From: Halorussus litoreus
Lineage (GTDB): Archaea; Halobacteriota; Halobacteria; Halobacteriales; Haladaptataceae
Assembly: GCF_003382685.1 (NCBI RefSeq)
Contig: NZ_QLVG01000041.1
Span: 1-64,000, forward strand
DNA length: 64,000 nucleotides
Direction: 5' to 3'
Positions 5,955 to 12,912 of this stretch are shown here, piece by piece; position 1 is the stretch's first letter; every line of letters begins with the position of its first letter. The notes beneath the pieces were generated by a model. That model searched no databases and was not told the origin of the DNA. It saw only the letters and a program-made list of their open reading frames with translations. Position numbers and translations under genes: made by a program.

Positions 5955-6072
5955 ATGTTCGGGAAGTCGGCGGACAGGGTGAAAAATCAGGTGGATTCCG
6001 GAACGCGGACAGTACGTCGTGAAGCGCGTGTCGGAAGATGGGGACATTATCAGATATTAGAATAACAAAATT

Positions 6073-6085
6073 TATATTTATATAA
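6073..6085 (+). promoter_or_regulatory. TATA box of the Cys-rich precursor gene
   Basis: The run tatatttatataa ends about 20 bp before the ATG at 6106. This places a strong archaeal TATA element at about -25 to -30 if the transcript begins at or next to the start codon. A leaderless mRNA is therefore predicted. The surrounding 60 bp are nearly pure A/T, unlike the flanks. Confidence 0.6.
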
Positions 6086-6105
6086 ACGTGTTTATTATTA
6101 TTATT

Positions 6106-6840
6106 ATGGAAGCCACGGACGAAGACACTTTAGTCGACGACGAGCGCGTGAACACGACCCGAAAGAGCCTGCTCGCGGAACTCGGACAAAAGTCCGACCG
6201 ACGCGGGTTTCTAAAGCGCGCCTTCGGCGGCCTCGGAGTTACACTCGCATCGACGTTCGGAATTTCCGGAACTGCAGTCGGCCACGGTGTCGAGAAGAGA
6301 GACGAGCGGATGGCAGCCGCGAGTTCGTATCACGATACTGAGCGAGTTCGTCAGGCCCTCGAAACGAGCGCATTCGACACGCTTACACAGTTGTCGAACC
6401 GAGACTATCTTGACTCGGCGTCCGTCTCCGAGCTGCCCGTCGATGAGTTATACGAATCGGTCGAAGAGTTCGGGAGTGCATCCGAGGGCACGATGGTGTT
6501 TGGAGTACTCCGAGACGGAGATTCAACCGTCCGAATCGAGGTTAAAAGACGGGTCTCGCCGGGAGAATTAAAGGTGGTCGTTCTTCCCGAGCGAAACCGT
6601 AGTTTCGCGGTCGTTTCGGAAGAAGAGGTCGAATCGCCGTTTGACTCTATGAAGCGCAAAGAGACAATATCTACGTCGTCGGACTGCCTGTGTGGTGCCT
6701 GTTATCCGAATGACTACTGTGGAATCTCCTGTAGTCCAACCTCGTGTGGGTGCCTCGTGCATCACGTCCCGAGCGAATGTTGTAACGACTGCTGTTATAC
6801 TGGTGACCCTTGCAACGGGTGTGCCGAGAGTTACTGCTAA
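6106..6840 (+). CDS. Tat-exported Cys-rich precursor, halocin-like
   Basis: 244 aa from the ATG at 6106; the upstream in-frame GTG would only add a run of Ile. A twin-arginine motif (DRRGFLKRAF, 31-40) and a hydrophobic segment (41-59) predict Tat secretion of the folded protein. Residues 60-190 form a charged alpha/beta region of unknown fold. The last 51 residues hold 14 Cys, with pairs such as ECCNDCC. This order (Tat signal, middle domain, Cys-rich C-terminus) matches halocin C8 precursors, in which the C-terminus is released as an antimicrobial peptide and the N-terminal part gives immunity. The Cys spacing and hydrophilicity differ from HalC8, so it is a relative by architecture at best. 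It could instead be a secreted metal-binding protein. It is convergent with the pseudokinase gene, with a 15-bp gap. Confidence 0.6.
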   Translation: MEATDEDTLVDDERVNTTRKSLLAELGQKSDRRGFLKRAFGGLGVTLASTFGISGTAVGHGVEKRDERMAAASSYHDTERVRQALETSAFDTLTQLSNRDYLDSASVSELPVDELYESVEEFGSASEGTMVFGVLRDGDSTVRIEVKRRVSPGELKVVVLPERNRSFAVVSEEEVESPFDSMKRKETISTSSDCLCGACYPNDYCGISCSPTSCGCLVHHVPSECCNDCCYTGDPCNGCAESYC

Positions 6841-6855
6841 CACGAGGCAATGTAG

Positions 6856-8964
6856 CTACCCGTCGTGAACGAAGAATACCCATCGAAGCTCGTCTCGGTA
6901 CGCTAACGGCGTTTCGTGGCGTTTGCTCGGGTTACTCGCCAGAGCTTTGGCGAGAACGTCGTCCACACGCTCCGGGAGGTCCGGGGAACGATCACTCGGT
7001 GGTACGAATGAGTGCTCGGTCGCACACTCACTGTCACCTTCGAAAGGGGGTTCGCCGGTAACGAGTCGGTAGGTGATTGCACCGAGCCGATACACGTCAG
7101 TTGACGCGCAAAGGGCGTCCGTTTCCGACGTGCGTTGTTCGGGGGCAACGTACGGGGACGTATCGTCGCCACAGAGTTGCCGGAATGGAACCACATCTAC
7201 GAATGCATTTTCGGGGTTCGTGTCGGGAAGCAGAATATGATCGGGCGTAATACGTGTATGGACGATCCCATTCTGGTGTGCATGGTGAAGTGCCTCGCTC
7301 GCGGTCGAAAGTATCTCGATTCCCGTTTCGATACCAATCGCGTCGACTCTGTCGGCGAGACTTTCTCGGGTACTGTGGTTTAACACGATCCACGGCTCGG
7401 GAGCGGTTCCCCAACAACGGACGGATGCGATAGTATCGTGGTCGACGTTCGCCCATCTTTGGACGGTCTGCTCGAACTGCTCATCGAAATGAGGCGGTGG
7501 CGTCGTTCGCAAGCGCTTCAGCGTGACGGAGGTCTGTCCGTCCCCGGATCGTGGATACGCTTCGAACGTTTCGTGATGTTCTTCGGAGCGTATCCGCTCA
7601 CCCAACTCGAAGTCGTCGGCACGTCTTTTCGGGGACGACTCTTCATCGTTCCCGGAGCTCTGTAACTGTCGATACGCGACCGTAGCACCCCCAGAACCGA
7701 GTAACAAGCCGCCCAGAACCAGTGTACCGGTACCAATATCCGTACTGATAATGTCGTTCGGAGGCGACACAAGAAACACAGTTCCGCGTGTCGTTCCGAA
7801 ACAGACCGCAGTGTCGTCGATCAACCGGGGCGGCCACGCCACCGTCCCGTCGAAATCATACGTCCAGCGTCGACTCCCGTCCGAAGTCGAGAGGACGTGT
7901 ACTCTCTCCTCGCCCCCAACTGCGATTCTGCCGCCAATACCCGTTCCGAGACGGGGAAACGACCCGGTTTCGGTTCGCCACTGCATCGTACCGTCGGCCG
8001 CAGAAACGGCATAAACGGTCCCGGTCGTCGTCGCCAGATAGATGTCCCCGTTAGCTCGCCGAACCGAACTCGTCAGCGCATCGTCCGCCACAAATTGCCA
8101 CCGTTCCGTCCCGTCGGCCGGGGAGAGGCCGTAAACTCGTTTCCCGTCGTTGACCGCGACTAAATGCGGTGTAACTAACCCGGGGAACTGATTGCGCGTT
8201 CGAGACGTATGAAAGTGCCATCTCTCTGTACCATCGTCAGCCGAGAGCGCGAAGATACCGCTTTCGTCCCCACTGGTCGCCCACACGTAGAGCGTTCGGG
8301 ATCGGTCCGACGACGGGACGACGTCAACGAGGTTCATCTTCGTGAACGAAGATTCGAATCCCGTTGGACTGCGGAACCGCCAACGCTCGGTACCGTCCGC
8401 CGGTGAAACCGCACGAACGGTACCCCGGTCGGTCGCGACGAACAACGTGTCCGAATCGGACAGTACATCCGAGTGGGACTGCGCGTCAAATGTGGATTGC
8501 CACTCTCCGGTCCCGGTCGTCGAGTGTGCCAAAAGAGTACCGCGATCTGCATCAGCGACGTACGTGGCCTCGTCAGATACCGCCAGAGCGTCTCCCCCGT
8601 TGAACGTCCAGCGGCGGGTTCCAGTGCGGAGATCGACCGCAGAGACGTTCTGCGTGGAATCGACGTAGAGCGTGTTTTCCCCGAGATTCTTCGCCCCGAC
8701 GAACGGGTTTTCAGCGCTAATCCTCCACTGTTCGCTTCCGTCCTGAATCGAAAGGGCGGAGAGGCTCCGCTCGGTCGAGACGTAGACGTGTTCGTCGGTG
8801 ACGACTAGCGGAGCCGCAAAGGAATCGTGCGCTGCCGTAACGCTCCACCGGACTTCCGGCGACGTGAACAACGCAGGGTCGAAACCCGTCGTTAGCCCAG
8901 ACGGGAGGAGACTGCCGACAAAAGCTCTCCGGGAGAGTGTAGGAACAGAATCACTTCTACCCAT
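6856..8964 (-). CDS. PQQ-like beta-propeller with C-terminal pseudokinase
   Basis: 702 aa. Residues 10-30 look like an export signal (SRRAFVGSLL). Residues about 35-400 are PQQ/WD-like propeller repeats with recurrent DGTERW motifs (about seven). A membrane helix follows at about 409-431 and a protein-kinase-like domain at about 452-696. In the kinase part the ATP-contact Lys is kept (TLKRLR, K483), and so are the APE segment (YVAPEQ) and the alpha-F STDVYRLG. The catalytic HRDLKPxN loop is HTRITPDH, so Asp, Lys and Asn are all replaced, and the glycine loop is not recognisable. This predicts an outside sensor linked to a cytoplasmic, probably inactive kinase domain. It is convergent with the Cys-rich precursor gene. 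Confidence 0.7.
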   Translation of the reverse strand: MGRSDSVPTLSRRAFVGSLLPSGLTTGFDPALFTSPEVRWSVTAAHDSFAAPLVVTDEHVYVSTERSLSALSIQDGSEQWRISAENPFVGAKNLGENTLYVDSTQNVSAVDLRTGTRRWTFNGGDALAVSDEATYVADADRGTLLAHSTTGTGEWQSTFDAQSHSDVLSDSDTLFVATDRGTVRAVSPADGTERWRFRSPTGFESSFTKMNLVDVVPSSDRSRTLYVWATSGDESGIFALSADDGTERWHFHTSRTRNQFPGLVTPHLVAVNDGKRVYGLSPADGTERWQFVADDALTSSVRRANGDIYLATTTGTVYAVSAADGTMQWRTETGSFPRLGTGIGGRIAVGGEERVHVLSTSDGSRRWTYDFDGTVAWPPRLIDDTAVCFGTTRGTVFLVSPPNDIISTDIGTGTLVLGGLLLGSGGATVAYRQLQSSGNDEESSPKRRADDFELGERIRSEEHHETFEAYPRSGDGQTSVTLKRLRTTPPPHFDEQFEQTVQRWANVDHDTIASVRCWGTAPEPWIVLNHSTRESLADRVDAIGIETGIEILSTASEALHHAHQNGIVHTRITPDHILLPDTNPENAFVDVVPFRQLCGDDTSPYVAPEQRTSETDALCASTDVYRLGAITYRLVTGEPPFEGDSECATEHSFVPPSDRSPDLPERVDDVLAKALASNPSKRHETPLAYRDELRWVFFVHDG

Positions 8965-11322: not shown

Positions 11323-11805
11323 CTACTCGGCGAACGTCTCGACGAGCGACTCCTCGGAGTAGTTCTGGAGCGGGTGGTGACTGTCGAGTTCGCGTTCGAT
11401 GATGAACGTGGAGTCGGTCCGAGCGACCGCGTCGAGTTCCTCGAAGTCGGAAACGAGCCGTTCGACGCTATCGCTGTCGGGAAGGCGTGCGAGCGCGATG
11501 AAGTCCGTTTCACCCATGGTGAAAAAGACCTTCGTCACGCCCTCGATCTCCGTGATAGCCCGACCGCTCTCGGTGTGGTACCGGTCGTCCTTCGTGAATA
11601 TCTCTACCAGAATCGTCACCCCGAGTCCGAACTCGTCGAGATCGATGTCGAGGCGCTCGTTGTCGATGACGCCGGCCTCTCGAAGGCTGTTGACGCGATA
11701 GTGAACCGTCGAGAGAGGGATACCGGTCGCCTCGCTGACCGACTCCGTACTGGTCGTTTCGAGGTCTGCCAGCGACTTCAGGATCCGAATATCTTTCTCG
11801 TCCAT
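11323..11805 (-). CDS. Lrp/AsnC family transcriptional regulator
   Basis: 160 aa from the ATG at 11805; an in-frame start at 11934 would add an unconserved extension. The N-terminal HTH (about 5-50) reads DEKDIRILKSLADL, then TESVSEATGIPLSTVHYRVN. A RAM/ACT-like domain follows (about 60-145, GLGVTILVEIFTK). These feast/famine proteins form dimers to octamers and usually sense amino acids. It lies directly upstream of ilvA on the same strand and divergent from an EamA exporter, so control of amino-acid synthesis or export is a fair inference. Confidence 0.88.
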   Translation of the reverse strand: MDEKDIRILKSLADLETTSTESVSEATGIPLSTVHYRVNSLREAGVIDNERLDIDLDEFGLGVTILVEIFTKDDRYHTESGRAITEIEGVTKVFFTMGETDFIALARLPDSDSVERLVSDFEELDAVARTDSTFIIERELDSHHPLQNYSEESLVETFAE

Positions 11806-11961
11806 GACGCGTGATACGCCAGTGACCTCGTAACTACTTCGAAATAGCTGGAGAATCCCGTTCTGATTCGGAACTATTTCATAGATATCGAAATCGAATC
11901 GAGTGATTGCCGAGAGAGTTCGATTATTCTCCATCCGGCGAGTAGCTGTGCGTGACACGAG

Positions 11962-12912
11962 ATGTTCGAGGCGATCCGTACCAGACTCTACGTCCCCGCC
12001 AGTCTCGCTATCGTCGCTCTCGGCTTCCTCTGGGGAGCGGGATTCCCGGCGATAGACGTCATCGTCGCGCAGTTTCCGCCGCTCGGTGCCGCGGGCATTC
12101 GCTACGGCGTCTCGGGCTGTATCGTCCTCGCGTACGCAACGTTCGAGACGGACCGCCTGCTGCCGCAAACCCGGCGCGAACTCCTCAGCATCCTCGTCGT
12201 CGGCGGGTTCATGTTTGGCGGATATCAGGCTGGACTGTATCTGGGAATACAGTACGTCTCCGGCGCGGTCGCCTCCGTCGTGATAACGATGTCACCGGTC
12301 GTGGCCGCGTTGGTCGCCGTCCCGATACTCGGCGAGTCCCGCGGTTCCCTCGACGTTGCCGGGTTCTGTCTCGGGCTTATCGGGGTCCTCGTCCTCTCCA
12401 AACCCACGCCGGGTACGACCGCACTCTCGGCCACGGCGGCCGGGGTCGGACTCGTGTTCCTCGGAACGACGCTGTTCGCTGTCGGGTCGGTCGCAGTCCA
12501 GGTATTCGACGGCGGCCTGCCGACGGAGTCACTACAGGGATGGGCGATGCTCGTGGGAGCGGCGACGTTGTTCTCCGGAGGCGCACTCCGCGGGGAGTCG
12601 CTGCCACCACTGGGGAGCATATCGCCGGTCGTGCTCGGGTCGCTGCTGTACGTCACCCTGATCGGCGGGGCGGCCGGGTACCTCCTGTACTTTCGCCTCG
12701 TGCATCGCGTCGGCGCCACCGAGACGACGCTCGTGGCGTATCTCGAACCGGTCGCCGCGGCGGTGGTGTCGGTGCTGTTGCTCGGACGCGGCGTAGAGAT
12801 CACCACGGTCGTCGGCTTCGTGGCGGTGGCTAGCGGGTTTACGCTCGTCAGTCGGCGGACCCTGCGACGGTCGGTCTCGAAGTTCCGGACCGCGGACGGT
12901 CGAGGACCCTGA
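11962..12912 (+). CDS. EamA/DMT family transporter
   Basis: 316-aa integral membrane protein with about ten transmembrane helices arranged as two repeated EamA halves (about 15-145 and 160-300). The first half has ALGFLWGAGFPAIDVIVAQ and SVVITMSPVVAALVAVPILGE, the usual loop-helix pattern before the first repeat ends. The second ends with ETTLVAYLEPVAAAVVSVL, the matching EamA signature. Family members export amino acids or other metabolites. The start lies about 150 bp from the divergent Lrp-type regulator, suggesting that this regulator controls it. Confidence 0.88.
   Translation: MFEAIRTRLYVPASLAIVALGFLWGAGFPAIDVIVAQFPPLGAAGIRYGVSGCIVLAYATFETDRLLPQTRRELLSILVVGGFMFGGYQAGLYLGIQYVSGAVASVVITMSPVVAALVAVPILGESRGSLDVAGFCLGLIGVLVLSKPTPGTTALSATAAGVGLVFLGTTLFAVGSVAVQVFDGGLPTESLQGWAMLVGAATLFSGGALRGESLPPLGSISPVVLGSLLYVTLIGGAAGYLLYFRLVHRVGATETTLVAYLEPVAAAVVSVLLLGRGVEITTVVGFVAVASGFTLVSRRTLRRSVSKFRTADGRGP

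Follow-up and report, generated by a model that had tools for sequence, protein, structure and literature searches.

A patchy, multi-copy haloarchaeal family of predicted Tat-exported precursors with even-cysteine tails, similar in layout to halocin C8 precursors

The window (the whole 64-kb stretch of DNA that was analysed) carries a gene for a 244-residue protein in which a predicted export signal, a middle domain, a linker and a Cys-rich tail follow one another. The features are given below, with the evidence used for each in brackets.

6050..6105 (+): AT-rich gap with the TATA-like element TTTATATTTATATAAA at 6071-6086 (sequence; family upstream regions)
6106-6840 (+): precursor gene, 244 aa plus stop (ORF reading and 115-member family)
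6196..6276 (+): twin-arginine signal region, residues 31-57, RR at 32-33 (sequence; conservation; Tat models match some members)
6283..6618 (+): Cys-free middle domain, residues 60-171 (AlphaFold2 prediction; no PDB fold match)
6619..6684 (+): linker, residues 172-193, presumed processing region (where V[S/T]xQ lies in C8 precursors and relatives)
6685..6837 (+): Cys-rich C-terminal peptide, residues 194-244, 14 Cys (sequence and family Cys statistics)

The ORF starts with ATG, an in-frame GTG at 6088 being a possible alternative. The gap 5′ of it has a GC content of 14% (50-bp window) and TTTATATTTATATAAA ends about 20 bases 5′ of the ATG, the spacing expected of a leaderless haloarchaeal promoter, so that the predicted promoter originally proposed here is consistent with the sequence. 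Across the family the upstream regions are 71% AT (n = 106 members) and a TATA-like 8-mer is present in 48 of these 106 compared with 32 in shuffles. On the other side, across a gap of 15 bases, lies the convergent gene 6856-8964 (−), whose product consists of a PQQ-type beta-propeller and then a protein-kinase domain; read by eye, the HRD-like motif is HTR and the DFG region is DVV, and the domain looks like that of a pseudokinase. This gene was ruled out as a partner of the precursor because no such gene recurs beside other family members. The window copy is not flanked by a dedicated gene for immunity, transport or proteolysis, and neighbourhood comparison indicated that a conserved neighbour is absent for most members of the family. 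Three orthologous members (L096, L098 and L099) share a chromosomal neighbourhood with a SecD/SecF-like pair, as judged by eye.

Residues 30-37 of the protein read SDRRGFLK and are followed by a hydrophobic stretch, which fits a Tat-type signal as had been claimed, though the window protein scores 11.9 bits against TIGR01409, below the cut-off of 16.7. R32 and L36 are invariant and R33 nearly so in an alignment of 25 members, some of which are matched by Tat models from Pfam or NCBIfam. Otherwise these collections gave only a few weak single-member matches for the 25 members, leaving middle and tail uncovered, and with the window protein Pfam, NCBIfam and PADLOC returned nothing beyond the sub-threshold Tat signal; the middle domain is thus unrecognised, in agreement with the original prediction. 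A PDB sequence search found no relative. AlphaFold2, supplied with a 25-row alignment, predicts that the middle domain has three helices, a short helix and a four-strand sheet, with a mean pLDDT per 10-residue block of 82-97 (mostly >90) for residues 61-170 and values near or below 50 for the signal and tail. As a Foldseek search of the PDB with this prediction (disordered ends included) gave no match (best E 0.6), the middle domain appears to be a compact fold new to the PDB. In the subgroup L003, L162 and L169 the middle domain contains a single additional Cys, on top of an even number in the tail. The linker carries KRK, and ETISTSSD immediately ahead of the first Cys.

A search with the single sequence gave matches in 28 other haloarchaeal genomes together with two paralogues in the window genome, the better matches having the same layout as the window protein. 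Profile searching matched 26 of the 28 genomes of the host's taxonomic family, with near full-length matches, among the matches listed, in about 20 of the 28 and signal-peptide matches in the rest. HMM matches confined to the signal peptide were left out of the count. At class level family matches occur in 47/392 genomes, and in a 295-genome sample of the phylum they occur only within the same order as the host. A genome may hold up to 8 copies (the window genome has 4) and tandem, non-identical copies occur. The fetched loci contained 117 matches to the middle-domain profile, from which 115 usable members were obtained. Scans of genome contigs found no relatives, a narrow-alignment search of viral contigs found no match, and no family member was found in the phages searched. 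This is a real, well-delimited and so far unnamed family, patchy, multi-copy and limited to haloarchaea among the genomes searched. It may have been listed earlier by Makarova et al. 2019, a study that reportedly predicts archaeal toxins widely.

The 14 Cys that had been noted in the last 51 residues (194, 196, 199, 205, 209, 214, 216, 225, 226, 229, 230, 236, 239 and 244) are the only ones in the 244 aa, and the runner-up stretch of 51 residues in all six frames of the 64-kb window has 8. The window tail has a net charge of −5 and ends in Cys. An even number of tail Cys behind a predicted export signal, as in disulfide-rich secreted peptides, is found in 113 of the 115 members (range 4 to 22), and both odd-Cys members come from one draft genome that is 62% complete. 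After dereplication 84 of 86 tails are even (binomial P ~5e-23, assuming random parity and independent tails) and where close relatives have unequal Cys counts the difference is even. The tails are nearly unalignable across subfamilies and retained inside orthologue-like groups; between paralogues the tail is almost wholly replaced while the pro-domain stays. In 21 of 30 orthologue-like pairs (which are not independent) the non-Cys tail positions are better conserved than the middle, the gap between the means being modest (0.68 versus 0.66).

The original prediction placed the parts of the window protein in the same order as those of halocin C8 precursors (ProC8, TIGR04449) without assigning it to that family, and both halves of this view are borne out. 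Tat-type signal, middle domain and even-Cys C-terminal peptide are common to the two families. TIGR04449, which scores above cut-off in 42/392 genomes, matches neither the window protein nor anything else in the window genome; the halocin C8 peptide sequence itself matches this model, and L036 encodes a 283-residue precursor that ends in that peptide. The profile comparisons that had been suggested as a check gave no significant similarity, with hhalign Prob values of 1.3 (3.8 with larger sets) for the middle domain against HalI and 0.1 for the tail against the C8 tail. A 97% whole-protein profile match to C8 was rejected as it is due to the signal peptide only. The tails also differ in kind: those of the family are hydrophilic and acidic, with 23-86 residues and 4-22 Cys, whereas C8 tails are hydrophobic, of about 70 residues and mostly with 8-12 Cys (GRAVY without Cys −1.13 versus +0.62), and the conserved order of ten Cys in the C8 alignment is not that of the family tails, which are spaced otherwise.

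Two further features are found in some members of both families. The first is the motif V[S/T]xQ (or I for V) in the last 22-28 residues ahead of the tail, present in 18/115 members and 11/41 C8 precursors compared with about 1% of background windows, and from this position we infer that it is a processing site; the window protein has a weaker variant, ISTS. The second is a gene for a two-helix membrane protein, which lies within 3 kb of 9/116 members (7 loci) and 2/42 C8 precursors, where chance would give about 0.23 and 0.06 respectively if there are ~2.6 copies of the membrane gene per 4-Mb genome, an estimate from the genome survey table. As this membrane family occurs in 359/392 genomes, mostly without an adjoining Tat precursor, it was ruled out as a general dedicated partner and would be an occasional one; the copy in the window genome (G000:C26:15994-16794) is unlinked. 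In one genus the slot beside the membrane gene is filled by a family member in one species (G073) and, in others, by a Tat precursor with a different Cys-rich tail (G255) or by another Tat precursor (G044). The membrane proteins (L218-L229, e.g. L222:1501-2481 (−)) have the pattern YTGxNRCxxCT...YLRGYLVPGTP...ESCC, with two hydrophobic helices (by eye) and a C-terminal Cys motif, and no Pfam or NCBIfam model was found for them. Genome G073 also has a family member and a C8-type precursor about 5 kb apart (L214:5796-6524 and 11453-12208). A GGC-ExWEA-like motif ahead of the Tat signal was seen in a few members of both families (L007, L020, L042 and L051) and, being present in just 2/117 members, was ruled out as a general feature.

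On balance we consider it probable, with some reserve, that the window protein is an archaeocin-like precursor which works like HalC8 without belonging to the C8 family. The precursor would be exported by Tat, as its signal suggests, and its cysteines would form disulfides outside the cell, a step for which the parity argues strongly. An extracellular serine protease of the halolysin type (there are five subtilase matches in the window genome) would then cut within the linker, ahead of the first Cys, and free an acidic, hydrophilic, disulfide-locked peptide that would act on other haloarchaea, the case for antagonism being the analogy with C8, the hypervariability of the tails and the patchy, multi-copy distribution. 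HalI holds halocin C8 inactive or protects the producer, and by analogy we would guess that the pro-domain does one or the other here. The hydrophilic tail, unlike the hydrophobic C8 peptides and reported halocins, counts against the archaeocin-like reading, as do the lack of dedicated partner genes beside the window copy and of a conserved neighbour in most members, the non-significant similarity of middle domain and HalI and the unlinked membrane gene. It is a more tentative suggestion, doubtful at present, that archaeal bacteriocins include this family as a second large class, made up of Tat-exported precursors in which a previously unseen pro-domain fold both guards a swappable disulfide-knotted peptide and confers immunity to it, and that the processing site and membrane partner are shared with halocin C8. 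Of the two functions originally offered for the window protein, a new halocin-like family is the one favoured, since the family is large and hypervariable and shares anatomy, pre-tail motif and neighbour with C8 precursors, although the name halocin itself is unearned.

Among known systems, C-terminal release is described as carried out by halolysin for HalH4 and by an unknown protease for HalC8 in the cited part of PMC12893001. The same part describes HalH4 and HmHapP (HFX_0892) of Haloferax mediterranei as protease-activated, with demonstrated activity; as is presumed for the family, they are secreted precursors that need extracellular halolysin, but HmHapP releases an N-terminal helical peptide and no disulfide-rich tails are described there for either, which by that description sets both apart from the family. 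Gallocin A, a disulfide-dependent bacteriocin (PMC10100652), is a small secreted peptide with a different export route, and serves as an analogy only.

The same kind of precursor might instead yield a pheromone-like peptide, secreted and rich in disulfides, for signalling or self-recognition among its own kind. The same anatomy and processing would serve such a role, and hypervariable tails and many paralogues would suit it too. We regard this as unlikely though worth keeping in mind, as no conserved receptor or regulator was found beside the members and the occasional neighbour common with C8 precursors hints at antagonism.

A secreted metal-binding or metallothionein-like protein, folded round its metal in the cytoplasm and exported folded, is improbable. 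Tat exports folded, cofactor-loaded proteins, so that the route would suit such cargo, and Cys is very dense in some members (22 in the 57-residue tail of L075). However, although the Cys number is nearly always even, it does not go in fours (38 of the dereplicated counts are divisible by four, the other 46 not), the family tails show no excess of CxxC (z −1.2) or CxC relative to shuffles and CC is depleted, with C-x3 to x6-C spacings enriched instead, and His makes up only 1.5% of the tails. Nor did the tail prove to be that of a known zinc- or iron-binding family, sequence searches of Pfam, NCBIfam and the PDB having yielded no relative. The secreted redox or metal protein that was the second original suggestion is thus disfavoured. 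Even counts without steps of four and without CxxC enrichment point to complete pairing of the tail cysteines as extracellular disulfides, here up to seven, and not to zinc, iron or metallothionein clusters.

A disulfide-stabilised structural or surface protein, for example a component of a cell-surface coat, would also be secreted (as predicted here), acidic and present as several paralogues. It seems a little less probable again, as a tail that is nearly all changed among paralogues with the pro-domain kept, and a patchy distribution, both speak against it. True, if highly diverged, membership of the halocin C8 family is very improbable given the lack of any TIGR04449 match in the window genome, tails that fail to align and their opposite hydropathy, even though the middle domain gives a weak, colinear alignment with HalI (score 19.2, against a maximum of 14.5 for 60 block-shuffled decoys and 15.9 for a reversed one) and the predicted order of elements, helices and then sheet, is alike in both. 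As this alignment scores over the decoys, a distant kinship of the middle domain and HalI is possible.

Few halocins are known at the gene level, and on the archaeocin-like reading the family would bring more than 100 candidate peptides (several per genome) from among proteins currently annotated as hypothetical. Halocin C8 has been called the best described halocin (PMC11509114). In Haloferax mediterranei antagonistic activity persists after removal of the known genes, according to the cited part of PMC12893001, and as this species has a family member, removing that gene would be a direct test of the idea. The gene in question is E6P09_RS17015 on pHME505 of strain ATCC 33500, whose product (WP_014732775.1) is annotated ‘hypothetical protein’ and shares 64% identity with a member from the window's genus.
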